From assembly GCA_029209985.1 (NCBI GenBank), contig JARGNZ010000002.1, forward strand, positions 62,001-126,000: a DNA stretch of 64,000 nucleotides, written 5' to 3'. Position numbers and translations under genes: made by a program. Each line of letters begins with the position of its first letter. Position 1 is the stretch's first letter. Source of the stretch: Parvibaculaceae bacterium. GTDB lineage: Bacteria; Pseudomonadota; Alphaproteobacteria; Parvibaculales; Parvibaculaceae. Below the pieces are notes generated by a model, which searched no databases, was not told where the DNA came from, and saw only the letters and a program-made list of their open reading frames with translations. This document shows positions 36,467 to 40,724 of this stretch, piece after piece.

Positions 36467-37189
36467 TCAATTGCGAAGCGTCAGTCTGTCATCAGATATT
36501 TCAAAGGATGAAAGGCGTCTTAGAAAAGTCATGCCAAGGAGCGAATGATCCAACCCTTCTTTGAGCACAACTGCCCGCACGTCAGGGATGGTAATAGAGC
36601 CAACTTGCACTGCTGCAAGTGTTATAGGCGCACCAAATACGACGCCATTGGCGGTGCTGAATTGGTGCGTGAAGGCGAGGCGCGATCGATCAACGCCCAA
36701 ACGGGACGCATCGAATAGGGTGAGTGAAACAGTTGAGGCACCCGTGTCGACCAAAAACCGGATATGGGACGTTTTGCCAGAACCATTTGTTCTGGATCCC
36801 TCAACAAGCGCATCAACCGAAAAATGACCTAAATGATCTGCTGGTAAACTCACAACGCCGTAAGCTTCGTCATGGGCCACAGTTGGCATCAACTCCCCAC
36901 TGACACGTCGATTGAAGTCTTCGAAATAATCGCGGTAGGAATACCCAATGATGATGACCATCAAAATGGCCAGCCATGTCAGAGCTTGTTTAATGGCCAA
37001 GGTGACGCTGCCACGATAGCCAAACACGCGCCGCCCAGCGATCGCCGCAAGCAAGATCGACAGGTAAATAAAGCGCATAAGATTGTCTGTGGAATCTAAT
37101 GCGCCGGGATAATAGTTGAATAGAAAGAGCAGTAGGACCGTGAGGCCACCAATTACTAACCCTACTATAAGCCATGGATTGTGTCTCAT
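36467..37189 (-). CDS. Membrane-anchored retropepsin-like aspartic protease (TIGR02281/PerP-type)
   Basis: 240 residues from ATG 37189; in-frame codons further upstream lack a ribosome-binding site. Three N-terminal hydrophobic segments (about 8-25, 36-55, 66-83), then a retropepsin fold with F-L-V-D-T-G-A-S-T-V-S as the single catalytic Asp motif and the second flap-and-core strand V-R-A-V-V-L-K-E-G-L. One D-T-G per chain means it should act as a dimer. The Caulobacter polarity protease PerP belongs to this group; whether this protein has a polar target is unknown. Confidence 0.82.
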   Translation of the reverse strand: MRHNPWLIVGLVIGGLTVLLLFLFNYYPGALDSTDNLMRFIYLSILLAAIAGRRVFGYRGSVTLAIKQALTWLAILMVIIIGYSYRDYFEDFNRRVSGELMPTVAHDEAYGVVSLPADHLGHFSVDALVEGSRTNGSGKTSHIRFLVDTGASTVSLTLFDASRLGVDRSRLAFTHQFSTANGVVFGAPITLAAVQVGSITIPDVRAVVLKEGLDHSLLGMTFLRRLSSFEISDDRLTLRN

Positions 37190-37348
37190 AGGTCCAGACT
37201 GTAGTATTGAAAAATTATAGAAACATGAAAAACCGGCGTTGTACCTCATTTTGGAGGCATCTTGCAAAATGTTGGTGACAGTATTATCTACACTATGCCC
37301 TGTGTGTTAGTGCAATACCACACAAATAAAATGCAAATAGGAAGATCT

Positions 37349-38323
37349 GTGACTGGCTCCGACCCAAAAAATAGGACGATAGCCGCCAATGATGCGGCAA
37401 CTGGTGACGACCAGACGGTTGCCACGGCTGCTGATGAAAAAGTAGTTCATTGGCGCAATGCACTCCCGCGCGCGCTGCCAAAAGGGCTGCGGAGCTTGAA
37501 CTTGCCAGAATTCGAGGCGGGCTGGGTTTGGCTGGTTGGGGCAGGGCCGGGCGATCCGGGTCTTTTAACGCTTCATGCGGTCAATGCCATCCAGCAAGCC
37601 GATGTTGTGATTTATGACGCGCTTGTGGGGGAGGAAATTTTAGGCCTAGCTCACGAAGACGCAGAAATGATTTACGCGGGAAAACGGGGCGGGAAACCAA
37701 GCCCGAAACAACGTGATATTTCTGCTCGCCTTGTAGAACACGCGAAACTGGGCAAACGGGTGCTGCGTCTCAAGGGCGGGGACCCTTTTGTTTTTGGGCG
37801 CGGCGGCGAAGAAGCCTTAGCCCTTGTTGAGGCGGGTATACATTTCCGTGTGGTGCCCGGCATCACCGCCGGTATTGGCGGGTTAAGCTACGCCGGTATT
37901 CCAGCCACGCATCGCGATACAAACCATGCGGTGACTTTCGTGACGGGGCATATGGCTGGTGGTAATGTTCCAGAAAACCTTGATTGGACGGCCATCGCAC
38001 AAGGCTCACCAACTGTTGTGGCCTATATGGCTTTGTCCCACTTGCCGCAAATTGCCCAATTGTTTTTAGAGGCTGGGCGTCCCCCCTCACAACCAGTGGC
38101 GCTGGTGCGTAACGCAAGCCTGCCGGATCAAAAGGTTTTGGAAACCACCTTGCGAGACGCCGTCAAAGACGTGGCGAGCAGTGGTTTTACTGCACCGGCA
38201 ATCATTGTGTTTGGCGATGTCGTGCGGATGAGAGCGGGCCTAGATTGGCTGGGCGCATTAGAAGGACGCGCCCTTAATCCCGACCCACTGGGGCACAAAA
38301 ATCAAGACGAAGATACAGCGTAA
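37349..38323 (+). CDS. cobA: Uroporphyrinogen-III C-methyltransferase (SUMT)
   Basis: 324 residues from GTG 37349, chosen because AGGAAG precedes it; ATG 37331 is an alternative. A ~50-residue unstructured N-terminus precedes the methyltransferase: V-G-A-G-P-G-D-P-G-L-L-T (SAM loop), D-A-L-V, G-K-R-G-G-K-P, L-K-G-G-D-P-F-V-F-G-R-G and V-P-G-I-T-A. It makes precorrin-2, the branch point to cobalamin and sirohaem, and there is no CysG-type oxidase domain. Convergent with DUF1289. Active-site residues look intact. Confidence 0.93.
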   Translation: MTGSDPKNRTIAANDAATGDDQTVATAADEKVVHWRNALPRALPKGLRSLNLPEFEAGWVWLVGAGPGDPGLLTLHAVNAIQQADVVIYDALVGEEILGLAHEDAEMIYAGKRGGKPSPKQRDISARLVEHAKLGKRVLRLKGGDPFVFGRGGEEALALVEAGIHFRVVPGITAGIGGLSYAGIPATHRDTNHAVTFVTGHMAGGNVPENLDWTAIAQGSPTVVAYMALSHLPQIAQLFLEAGRPPSQPVALVRNASLPDQKVLETTLRDAVKDVASSGFTAPAIIVFGDVVRMRAGLDWLGALEGRALNPDPLGHKNQDEDTA

Positions 38324-38351: not shown

Positions 38352-38570
38352 TTATGGGTGGCGTCCGGCCAGTTTGATTTTGTTCGCTTCAAGGCGAGCG
38401 GGCAAGGCGCTCATAATGTCTTTGCGTTCTGTGTCGGAGTAGCCAGACCAGCCAGCAATTTCCTTTAACGTACGCCCACAGCCCACGCAATTATTGGTCA
38501 TACCACTAACCCCACATTTGCTCACGCAGGGGCTTTCGATCGTTAAATGGGGAGCGAGTGTATTTGTCAT
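38352..38570 (-). CDS. DUF1289 small cysteine protein
   Basis: 72 residues with the DUF1289 pattern S-P-C-V-x3-C and N-C-V-G-C-G-R-T-L-x-E-I-A-G-W, four cysteines that could bind zinc or an iron-sulfur cluster. Function unknown in the family. Its start overlaps the stop of the CobS-like gene (ATGA type overlap on the minus strand), so the two are coupled; DUF1289 genes often adjoin cobalamin genes in alphaproteobacteria. Confidence 0.85.
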   Translation of the reverse strand: MTNTLAPHLTIESPCVSKCGVSGMTNNCVGCGRTLKEIAGWSGYSDTERKDIMSALPARLEANKIKLAGRHP

Positions 38571-39466
38571 GCTTTTTCTAATACCATAAAAACAGCGGTA
38601 AGGAAGGCAACTTCACTCACCAGCTCAATTGTGAGCACGTCATAAGGGCGATAGGTGCCACGCGCCGACGTAACCACAAACCCCATAACAATCAAAGCAG
38701 CACACGCAGCCGCAATGGCGAGGGTCGCCAGCAGGGCAGGCAACGTGAGAAAGCAAATCATGCCGGTAAAGATAAGACCTTGTATGACTGTTGCTTCACG
38801 TGGGCGCACATCATGATCGGTATCCACGCCCTCAATGGGGACAAAGTGGCGAAAGAGAAGCCCCGCAATGCCCGCCATGGCTTGGGAGGCAATGAGAGCT
38901 AAGAGCACCATGCCCGGATCGCTGGCCGCCCCAACACCAGCAATAAGCCCAACCTGGACAATCAGCAAAAGAACCAATGCTGTCGCACCAGAAGGCATGG
39001 GAGAATGTGATCGTTCATTCGCAGATCTACGCGCCAGTCGGTTGACGGTTTCAACAAGACCGTCCTCACGTGCGGCCCCTTGGGTGAGGATCATAATGCC
39101 CACAGCCAATGCCGCGCATACAAGCTCCGGCAGATCCGCCGCCGCCAACAGAAGAAAGGCCATGCCGCCGATGAGGCCGATGACAGCCCCCACTAAGGGA
39201 AGGGCGCGGTCGCGTCTCAGGTCGGCCGGTTGGAGAGGGGCAGAGGCAGGGTCGGGAACAGGTTGATCCACTGGCATGCCTGCAAGTTGCGTCCGCGCAC
39301 CCAACACATCTATGAAGTCGGATGAAAGTTCGGTCGGGTTGATGTCGAGCCAATGGTCGCGCGGAGGCAGGACAGGATCGGGTATAACCTTGTTGGACGG
39401 CCAAACCGGATCGCTGAGAGGCGTGCCAGAGGGTTTTTCTTTCTCTGTATTGAAAGATTTAGCCAT
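38567..39466 (-). CDS. CobS (cobalamin synthase)-like membrane protein with altered signature motifs
   Basis: 299 residues from ATG 39466. About five hydrophobic segments and F-I-D-V-L-G-A-R-T-Q-L, L-P-L-V-G-A-V-I-G and G-A-A-R-E-D-G-L-V-E-T clearly place it in the adenosylcobinamide-GDP ribazoletransferase family. The signature H-x-D-G-L-A-D-T-x-D-G reads R133-E-D-G-L-V-E-T-V-N-R, the M-(K/R)-D-S-R-x-G-T motif is replaced by P157-M-P-S-G-A-T, and the C-terminal G-Q-T-G-D is G270-T-Y-R-P-Y-D. A hydrophilic N-terminal extension of about 50 residues is also unusual. Enzymatic activity is doubtful. Divergent from a CobT-like gene. Confidence 0.78.
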   Translation of the reverse strand: MAKSFNTEKEKPSGTPLSDPVWPSNKVIPDPVLPPRDHWLDINPTELSSDFIDVLGARTQLAGMPVDQPVPDPASAPLQPADLRRDRALPLVGAVIGLIGGMAFLLLAAADLPELVCAALAVGIMILTQGAAREDGLVETVNRLARRSANERSHSPMPSGATALVLLLIVQVGLIAGVGAASDPGMVLLALIASQAMAGIAGLLFRHFVPIEGVDTDHDVRPREATVIQGLIFTGMICFLTLPALLATLAIAAACAALIVMGFVVTSARGTYRPYDVLTIELVSEVAFLTAVFMVLEKA

Positions 39467-39740
39467 TTTTTGCCAATCCTTTCTCATGTGCAAGGCGGTT
39501 TGCGCGCTTGCGTCATTTCCTGCCAAAAGATATAGGAGAGCATCAGAGAGAGCCGTGAACGCTCCTGTTCTCTCTTATATGAATATGGCATTCAACATAC
39601 ACCTATTTTCTGCTCATGAATATGACGTAAACACTTGTAAATAACGCTAATCCGCGACCTGCATTTTGCTCAGTGCCTTTTGCGCCGTAACGGTGGCGAT
39701 CGTCAAAATCTACCGCAGACCAAAGACCGAAAGCGATACC

Positions 39741-40724
39741 ATGACCCGCGCAGCCACAGGCCTTCCTTTTGATGACATTCGGAATTTATTGGAGGGCTTG
39801 CCTCATCCAGATACGGACGCGGTGGACCAGCTCAAAGAGCATATCGCAAGCTTGGCAGTGGTGCCGGGCGGTTTAGGTGTGATGGCGCAACACGCCGAAT
39901 GGGTGGCCGCTTGGCAGGGAGATGCAAAACCACAGATTGCACAGCCACTTATTGCTGTTTTTGCGGCAACGCAGGGCATTGCGACCCGTCACCTTCCCCA
40001 AGAGGTGCTCGTTAAAGAAACGCGGACTCAATTGGAGTTGATGGCCGCAGGCGGTGCCCCCGTCAATCAAATCGCTCACGAATGTGGAGCTGGATTGAAA
40101 GTCTTTGATTTGGCGTTGGATATGCCAACGCCTGATATTTGTGAAGAAGACGCATTAGATGAAGCAGCCTGTGCGGCGACCATGGCTTTTGGCATGGAAG
40201 CGATTGCCGGTGGGGCTGATATCTTGTGCGTATCGGATGCTGGTGTGGGCACAGAAGCAACAGCCAGCGCGCTTGCAATGAAGCTTTTTGGTGGGAGTGC
40301 GCAAGAATGGGCAGAAGATCCCGCAGTGCAGGCCGATATTCAAATGGCGATAGAGCGCCACGCAGATACGCCAGAGGATTTGCTGGAAGTTCTCCGCCGG
40401 ATAGCAGGCCGCGATATTGCCGCCATGGCGGGAGCCATTTTGGCTGCCCGGTATCAGCATATTCCTGTGTTGCTTGATGGTTTTGCCAGCACCGTGGCAG
40501 CGGCTTTATTGTTCAAAATCAGCCCGAACACCATTGCCCATTGTATGGCGACTCACAGTGCCCACGCTGCACATGACAAATTATTGGAAAAAATCGGCAA
40601 AAAACCCTTGCTCGGGTGGGGTATTCGCCAAGCTCAGGGCACGGGGGCCGCTCTGGCTATTGGGTTGCTCAAGTCTTCTTTGTCTGCAGTGAGTGGCACA
40701 GCCCGCCGGGATCAACTGTCTTGA
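39741..40724 (+). CDS. CobT-like (nicotinate-nucleotide:DMB phosphoribosyltransferase) protein lacking catalytic Glu
   Basis: 327 residues from ATG 39741. CobT fold signs: P-G-G-L-G near 42-46, I-A-A-M-A-G-A-I-L-A-A-R (226-237) and I-P-V-L-L-D-G-F (241-248). The catalytic glutamate, in R-L-G-E-G-S/T-G-A of known CobT enzymes, aligns with Q299 in R-Q-A-Q-G-T-G-A; the usual A-D-H-G-V strand reads A-T-Q-G-I (76-80); and the S-x-E part of the loop before the last helices reads T271-H-S-A-H. The scaffold is kept but key residues are gone. It faces the CobS-like gene across a 274-base divergent region. Confidence 0.78.
   Translation: MTRAATGLPFDDIRNLLEGLPHPDTDAVDQLKEHIASLAVVPGGLGVMAQHAEWVAAWQGDAKPQIAQPLIAVFAATQGIATRHLPQEVLVKETRTQLELMAAGGAPVNQIAHECGAGLKVFDLALDMPTPDICEEDALDEAACAATMAFGMEAIAGGADILCVSDAGVGTEATASALAMKLFGGSAQEWAEDPAVQADIQMAIERHADTPEDLLEVLRRIAGRDIAAMAGAILAARYQHIPVLLDGFASTVAAALLFKISPNTIAHCMATHSAHAAHDKLLEKIGKKPLLGWGIRQAQGTGAALAIGLLKSSLSAVSGTARRDQLS

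Follow-up and report, generated by a model that had tools for sequence, protein, structure and literature searches.

In Salmonella enterica CobT (SeCobT), Glu317 is the catalytic base. Glu174 makes the 2'-OH contact in the same enzyme, and the base of the M. jannaschii enzyme (MjCobT) is Asp52 (PMC9561151). Alanine at D82, D86, D89 or D229 kills the function of S. enterica CobS, and a membrane-anchored late B12 complex of CbiB, CobU, CobT, CobC and CobS has been proposed (PMC8092220). Among CobT relatives, a new substrate range is represented by the phenol-activating ArsAB, which is almost entirely restricted to Negativicutes (PMC6461909). Our literature search found nothing on CobT pseudoenzymes, nor on CobT of Parvibaculum or Kordiimonas.

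Here we describe a divergently oriented gene pair from a Parvibaculaceae bacterium. It lies in the window, by which we mean the whole 64,000-nucleotide stretch of contig JARGNZ010000002.1 that was analysed. The products are termed CobS' and CobT', and the locus comprises the following features:

37262-38323, plus strand: SUMT/CobA-like tetrapyrrole methylase (PF00590), syntenic in nearly all family members
38352-38570, minus strand: DUF1289 protein, 3' of cobS' with a 4-bp overlap (PF06945, 63 bits; synteny)
38567-39466, minus strand: CobS', a CobS-derived membrane protein of 299 aa without the CobS active-site motifs (Pfam CobS, 31.6 bits)
39041-39070, minus strand: REDGLVETVN (R133 to N142), replacing the HxDxxxDxxD loop-2 motif of CobS (alignments)
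39467-39740, no strand: divergent cobS'/cobT' intergenic region, with no Rfam riboswitch at gathering threshold
39741-40724, plus strand: CobT', a CobT-fold protein of 327 aa without the CobT catalytic residues (Pfam DBI_PRT, 210 bits)
40092-40229, plus strand: hyperconserved scaffold segment 1, aa 118-163, GLKVFDLALDMPTPDI...MAFGMEAIAGGADILC (identity, pN/pS)
40236-40238, plus strand: codon of Asp166, aligned with SeCobT Glu174 (alignments)
40308-40335, plus strand: remnant of the NaMN-phosphate loop (canonical GxGTGxDxxGxxRK), about 9 residues deleted (alignments)
40377-40487, plus strand: hyperconserved scaffold segment 2, aa 213-249, core LLEVLRRIAGRDIAAMAGAILAARYQHIPVLLDGF (identity, pN/pS)
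40635-40637, plus strand: codon of Gln299, aligned with SeCobT Glu317 (alignments)

CobT' clears the gathering score of the CobT fold superfamily PF02277 by a wide margin (210 versus 22.6 bits) and lies below the cut-offs of the CobT equivalog TIGR03160 (176.7 versus 319.3 bits) and of NF000996 (214 versus 306 bits). TIGR03160 is passed both by a canonical CobT encoded on another contig of the same genome, C28 (422.9 bits), and by the native CobT of a sister genus (G002, 395 bits). The listed open reading frame opens earlier, at 39666; the conserved N-termini of relatives point to the ATG at 39741 as the likely true start (MTRAATGLPFDDIR). As reference we used the 330-residue SeCobT sequence from the PDB alignment, in which E174 and E317 were checked. 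Alignment to this sequence bears out the first-pass annotation, which had read a glutamine (Q299) at the position of the catalytic glutamate and changes in the ADHG and SAE loops. The arginine aligned with SeCobT R314 is retained in the window protein. The exchange of E317 for glutamine does not by itself prove inactivity, because MjCobT uses Asp52 as its base (PMC9561151). The other losses, of the phosphate loop and of E174, are independent of the identity of residue 317.

CobS' likewise clears the gathering score of its Pfam family (PF02654, 31.6 versus 23.2 bits) and falls below the CobS equivalog TIGR00317 (22.8 versus 110 bits). Its likely start, again based on N-termini that relatives share, is the minus-strand ATG at 39466. 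Alignment confirmed the earlier reading of R-E-D-G-L-V-E-T-V-N without the MKDSRIG-type and GGQTGD motifs: H80, D86 and D89 are gone while D82 is retained, the MKDSRIG segment is absent, and loop 6 reads ARGTYRPYDVLTIE in place of GxxGDxxG. Nine helices are predicted, of which eight are long and lie within the CobS region. The AlphaFold2 model is a multi-helix bundle (pLDDT 83); a fold search with this model gave no significant match, solved CobS structures included.

For CobT', AlphaFold2 predicts a CobT fold with pLDDT 93.8 and pTM 0.92. The nearest solved structures are those of T. thermophilus CobT, ArsAB and SeCobT (TM 0.81-0.87), with the E174A and E317A mutants of SeCobT among the matches. 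This agreement is partly expected, because the input alignment included true CobTs.

Comparison with relatives (Parvibaculum, Tepidicaulis and Rhodobiaceae MAGs) establishes that the pair is the family's native cobS-cobT locus. The order DUF1289-cobS<>cobT is usual in Phyllobacterium, Rhizobium, Microvirga, Kaistia and other Hyphomicrobiales, and the Parvibaculaceae order SUMT> <DUF1289 <cobS cobT> ACAD> ACAD> is largely maintained. A coupled DUF1289 gene, which had been counted as an addition to the set, is indeed present at 38352-38570, but its linkage is ordinary synteny, since this order is common in Hyphomicrobiales. An Rfam search of the locus found no cobalamin riboswitch or other RNA at gathering threshold. 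Adjoining the SUMT gene, the window also encodes a membrane-anchored retropepsin-like aspartyl protease (36467-37267, minus strand; PF13975/PF13650), which is conserved in most Parvibaculaceae.

In the sister genus g2 (G002), the native locus encodes intact CobS (170 bits) and CobT (398 bits). G002 alone in the family has the ring gene CbiJ above its cut-off. CobT' is degenerate in all other genera and forms one clade (100/99 support), inside which a divergent protein from another family (G083) also falls on a long branch. Degenerate CobS' persists in the window genus (g1) and in Tepidicaulis (g4) and has been lost from g3 and from Parvibaculum (g5). Tepidicaulis and every Parvibaculum genome but one are without CobU (over cut-off) and CbiB, with CobT' still present. 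CobT' occurs mostly in family genomes without CobS, CobU or CbiB, and more than 25 genomes have its frame at full length. It coexists with a canonical CobT in g1, g3 and one further genome (G020); in most Parvibaculum and Tepidicaulis genomes CobT' occurs without a canonical copy. At the former active site, most Parvibaculum proteins retain Glu at position 317, and E174 is replaced by Asp in g1 and g3. A Parvibaculum genome that is 99% complete (G015) has no CobT of any kind, so the function of CobT' is dispensable there.

Intact cobS and cobT, sought elsewhere in the genome of the window, are both found on contig C28, which holds a complete canonical cobT-cobC-cobS-cobU-cobQ cluster (CobT 431 bits, CobS 156 bits). 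The identities of CobT, CobS, CobU and CbiB on this contig rest on Pfam matches. It also carries what we take, for several of the names from reading translations, to be a cobC-like phosphatase, cobQ, an ABC importer, cobO and a CobD-like aminotransferase. Because of this full canonical set, the window pair is not the genome's working nucleotide-loop enzymes. The tree places the C28 CobT far away from the native clade of Hyphomicrobiales-type CobTs (100/100), which suggests that the C28 cluster was acquired. In the genome of the window, a tRNA-His gene precedes the canonical cluster (L005:10057-13266) by about 50 bp; both g1 genomes, and not g3, show this adjacency. We rejected this adjacency as proof of an island because it is limited to g1, and the case for a foreign origin is therefore that made by the tree.

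A second g1 species shares the changes, at 92% protein identity for CobT' and 91% for CobS' (range 90-92%). The two g1 genomes give a dN/dS of 0.027 for CobT' and 0.049 for CobS', below the values of their canonical copies (0.066 for CobT, 0.079 for CobS); these absolute values are rough because synonymous sites are near saturation, and the contrast with protein identity is still clear. Other CobT' pairs in the family give 0.05-0.18. Because the motif changes are common to a second species under strong purifying selection, they are not due to chance or sequencing error.

Conservation is distributed unevenly along CobT'. Identity among CobT' proteins exceeds that in canonical CobT for segment 1 (0.85 versus 0.76) and segment 2 (0.82 versus 0.78), whereas it drops from 0.88 to 0.52 in the E174 loop, from 0.87 to 0.47 in the E317 loop and from 0.56 to 0.23 in the phosphate loop; as the boundaries were chosen after viewing the alignment, this contrast is a description and not a blind test. 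The catalytic and pocket loops vary freely from genus to genus. For both segments together, pN is 0.016 and pS 0.78 between G000 and G001, and across pairs the core segments show a low pN of 0.005-0.035 at a pS of 0.27-0.78, so the constraint acts on the protein. Constraint at the DNA level was considered and rejected: synonymous change in the segments is about the same as elsewhere in most pairs.

Stripped CobTs occur in about ten other alphaproteobacterial families. We sought low-scoring CobTs in a sample of 387 alphaproteobacterial genomes and found them in f121 (4/4 genomes), f70, f86, f28, f57, f85, f37, f14, f90 and f47, and in f11 from a separate search. Several of these genomes are without any CobS, and members of f14, f37 and f85 carry a canonical CobT too. 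Across 25 degenerate CobTs, E174 and T180 are retained in none (0/25), E293 and R314 in 4% each, K213 in 16% and E317 in 24%, while G240, A245, G248, R254, P259 and G264 are present in 100% and D263 in 92%. Eight degenerate CobTs of other families form a second clade, with support (99/89) that long branches could exaggerate and with higher dN/dS (0.18-0.35). In the Hyphomicrobiales sample, CobTs with an adjacent CobS retain the signature, g1 and g4 being the exceptions. Neighbour clustering, which was noisy, found no recurrent neighbour common to all degenerate CobTs outside Parvibaculaceae; the neighbours are scattered, some CobTs having a CobC-like phosphatase nearby, those of one family psp-like genes, and those of G083, Agaricicola and Mesorhizobium DUF1289.

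The parallel loss of signatures in both partners, reported for the window by the first-pass annotation, is supported, and is seen likewise in Tepidicaulis and in the unrelated genome G127. This 2.3 Mb genome of another family has an independent, divergently oriented pair of diverged CobS and CobT (L218:5873-7815), its CobS with the motifs KHEKELGFLTDK and EGCTEEVLGG and its CobT with GDLGITSN and without the GTG loop. Bartonella grahamii and B. tribocorum (L152 and L161) have a CobT and no CobS in the fetched neighbourhood; E174 and E317 are retained and the phosphate loop is altered (xNGMESEGDF versus GPGTGS in relatives), which may be an early step in this process. Agaricicola taiwanensis (L140) and Mesorhizobium sp. 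LSJC280B00 (L173) have DUF1289 next to CobT with no CobS between, and partly lost CobT signatures; these are apparently separate origins. Three f14 loci (L081, L224 and L225) encode a shortened, stripped second CobT away from any cob gene. It adjoins what is presumably a phage-shock (psp)-like cluster, as named from reading translations.

We conclude that the catalytic motifs have been lost, that the genes derive from the native locus and evolve under purifying selection, and that they are independent of the nucleotide-loop pathway. CobT' is probably a CobT-fold pseudoenzyme, joined in two genera by a membrane CobS-fold partner, and kept for a non-catalytic role. A pseudoenzyme is the most economical reading because the phosphate site is deleted, the pocket loops vary and the codon data contradict decay. 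A constrained core with relaxed loops could also arise if selection acted on folding alone, with an unrecognised substrate. Slow decay would make both proteins functionless relics of a native B12 locus after the loss of de novo synthesis. It would account for CbiJ being over the cut-off only in the family member with intact native enzymes, for the outright deletion of CobS in g3 and g5 and for the variation of active-site residues between genera. The earlier suggestion that the genes are decaying is nevertheless contradicted by their dN/dS of 0.03-0.05. Such decay is also improbable because dN/dS stays at 0.027-0.18 in all the family pairs compared, more than 25 genomes have a full-length frame, the core segments are better conserved than those of working CobTs, and stripped CobTs recur in many families.

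A different phosphoribosyl or lower-ligand reaction had also been proposed; on such a reading, CobT' would still bind a ribotide or base and catalyse another transfer, with CobS' taking the product. The predicted intact fold, Glu at 317 in most Parvibaculum, Asp at 174 in g1 and g3 and the window's Arg at 314 are compatible with such an enzyme; an alternative base residue of the CobT type is known in MjCobT Asp52 (PMC9561151), and ArsAB sets a precedent for a new substrate range (PMC6461909). We consider it unlikely, since the phosphate loop is deleted, E174, T180 and E293 are lost, usually with K213 and R314, and the pocket loops differ by genus, which would not be expected of a selected active site. 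Most genomes have no CobS', and either reaction is further disfavoured by the complete absence of CobS, CobU and CbiB from most family members. CobT' might instead be a regulatory subunit or heterodimer partner for the canonical CobT in its own genome, as ArsB is for ArsA, a structural precedent that g1, g3 and G020, with both proteins, could follow. CobT' occurs without any canonical CobT in most Parvibaculum and Tepidicaulis genomes, and CobT' and the C28 CobT belong to distant clades, which makes the C28 copy probably a later acquisition and a subunit role very improbable.

If CobT' is a pseudoenzyme, the native cobS-cobT locus would have outlived the loss of cobamide synthesis. In CobT', the CobT fold would have been kept after loss of the catalytic base and the NaMN site, and the conserved core segments would let the protein serve as a scaffold or binding subunit without catalysis. 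CobS' would have lost its active-site loops and kept a CobS-type multi-helix membrane architecture, perhaps holding CobT' at the membrane in g1 and g4. The model for such an arrangement may be the membrane complex proposed for the late B12 enzymes (PMC8092220), put to another use. We are evenly divided on a broader proposal, that the alphaproteobacterial CobT core (SeCobT approximately 107-172 and 231-266) has a second, non-catalytic function and that pseudoenzymes arose from it several times, sometimes with a CobS pseudoenzyme as membrane partner. The active site would then erode once cobamide synthesis was lost, and the core function would preserve the protein.

CobT' genes pass the Pfam CobT cut-off well and can be annotated cobT; B12 and lower-ligand predictions drawn from such annotation would therefore be wrong for them. 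A hidden second role of CobT, if true, would also matter for cobT knockouts made in genuine B12 producers. Any deletion phenotype of CobT' in Parvibaculum could not stem from cobamide assembly, because CobS, CobU and CbiB are absent.

Compared with known systems, CobT' is homologous to S. enterica CobT (TIGR03160) over its full length, with a shared predicted fold and the native cobS<>cobT locus, but is without E317, E174, the phosphate loop and the SAE glutamate. CobS' shares with CobS (TIGR00317) the locus and a predicted multi-helix membrane architecture, and its N-terminal segment is common to the intact CobS of G002; it differs in being without H80, D86, D89, MKDSRIG and GxxGDxxG. Like CobT', ArsB is a diverged CobT homologue, is among the structure matches (4hdk_B and others) and works in partnership. 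ArsAB, however, are tandem genes, whereas CobT' is a single gene with the canonical CobT on another contig, and CobT' persists without any CobT partner. The late B12 complex likewise combines a CobS-type membrane protein with a CobT-type soluble protein; in contrast to its members, CobT' and CobS' are without catalytic residues, and CobU and CbiB are often absent.
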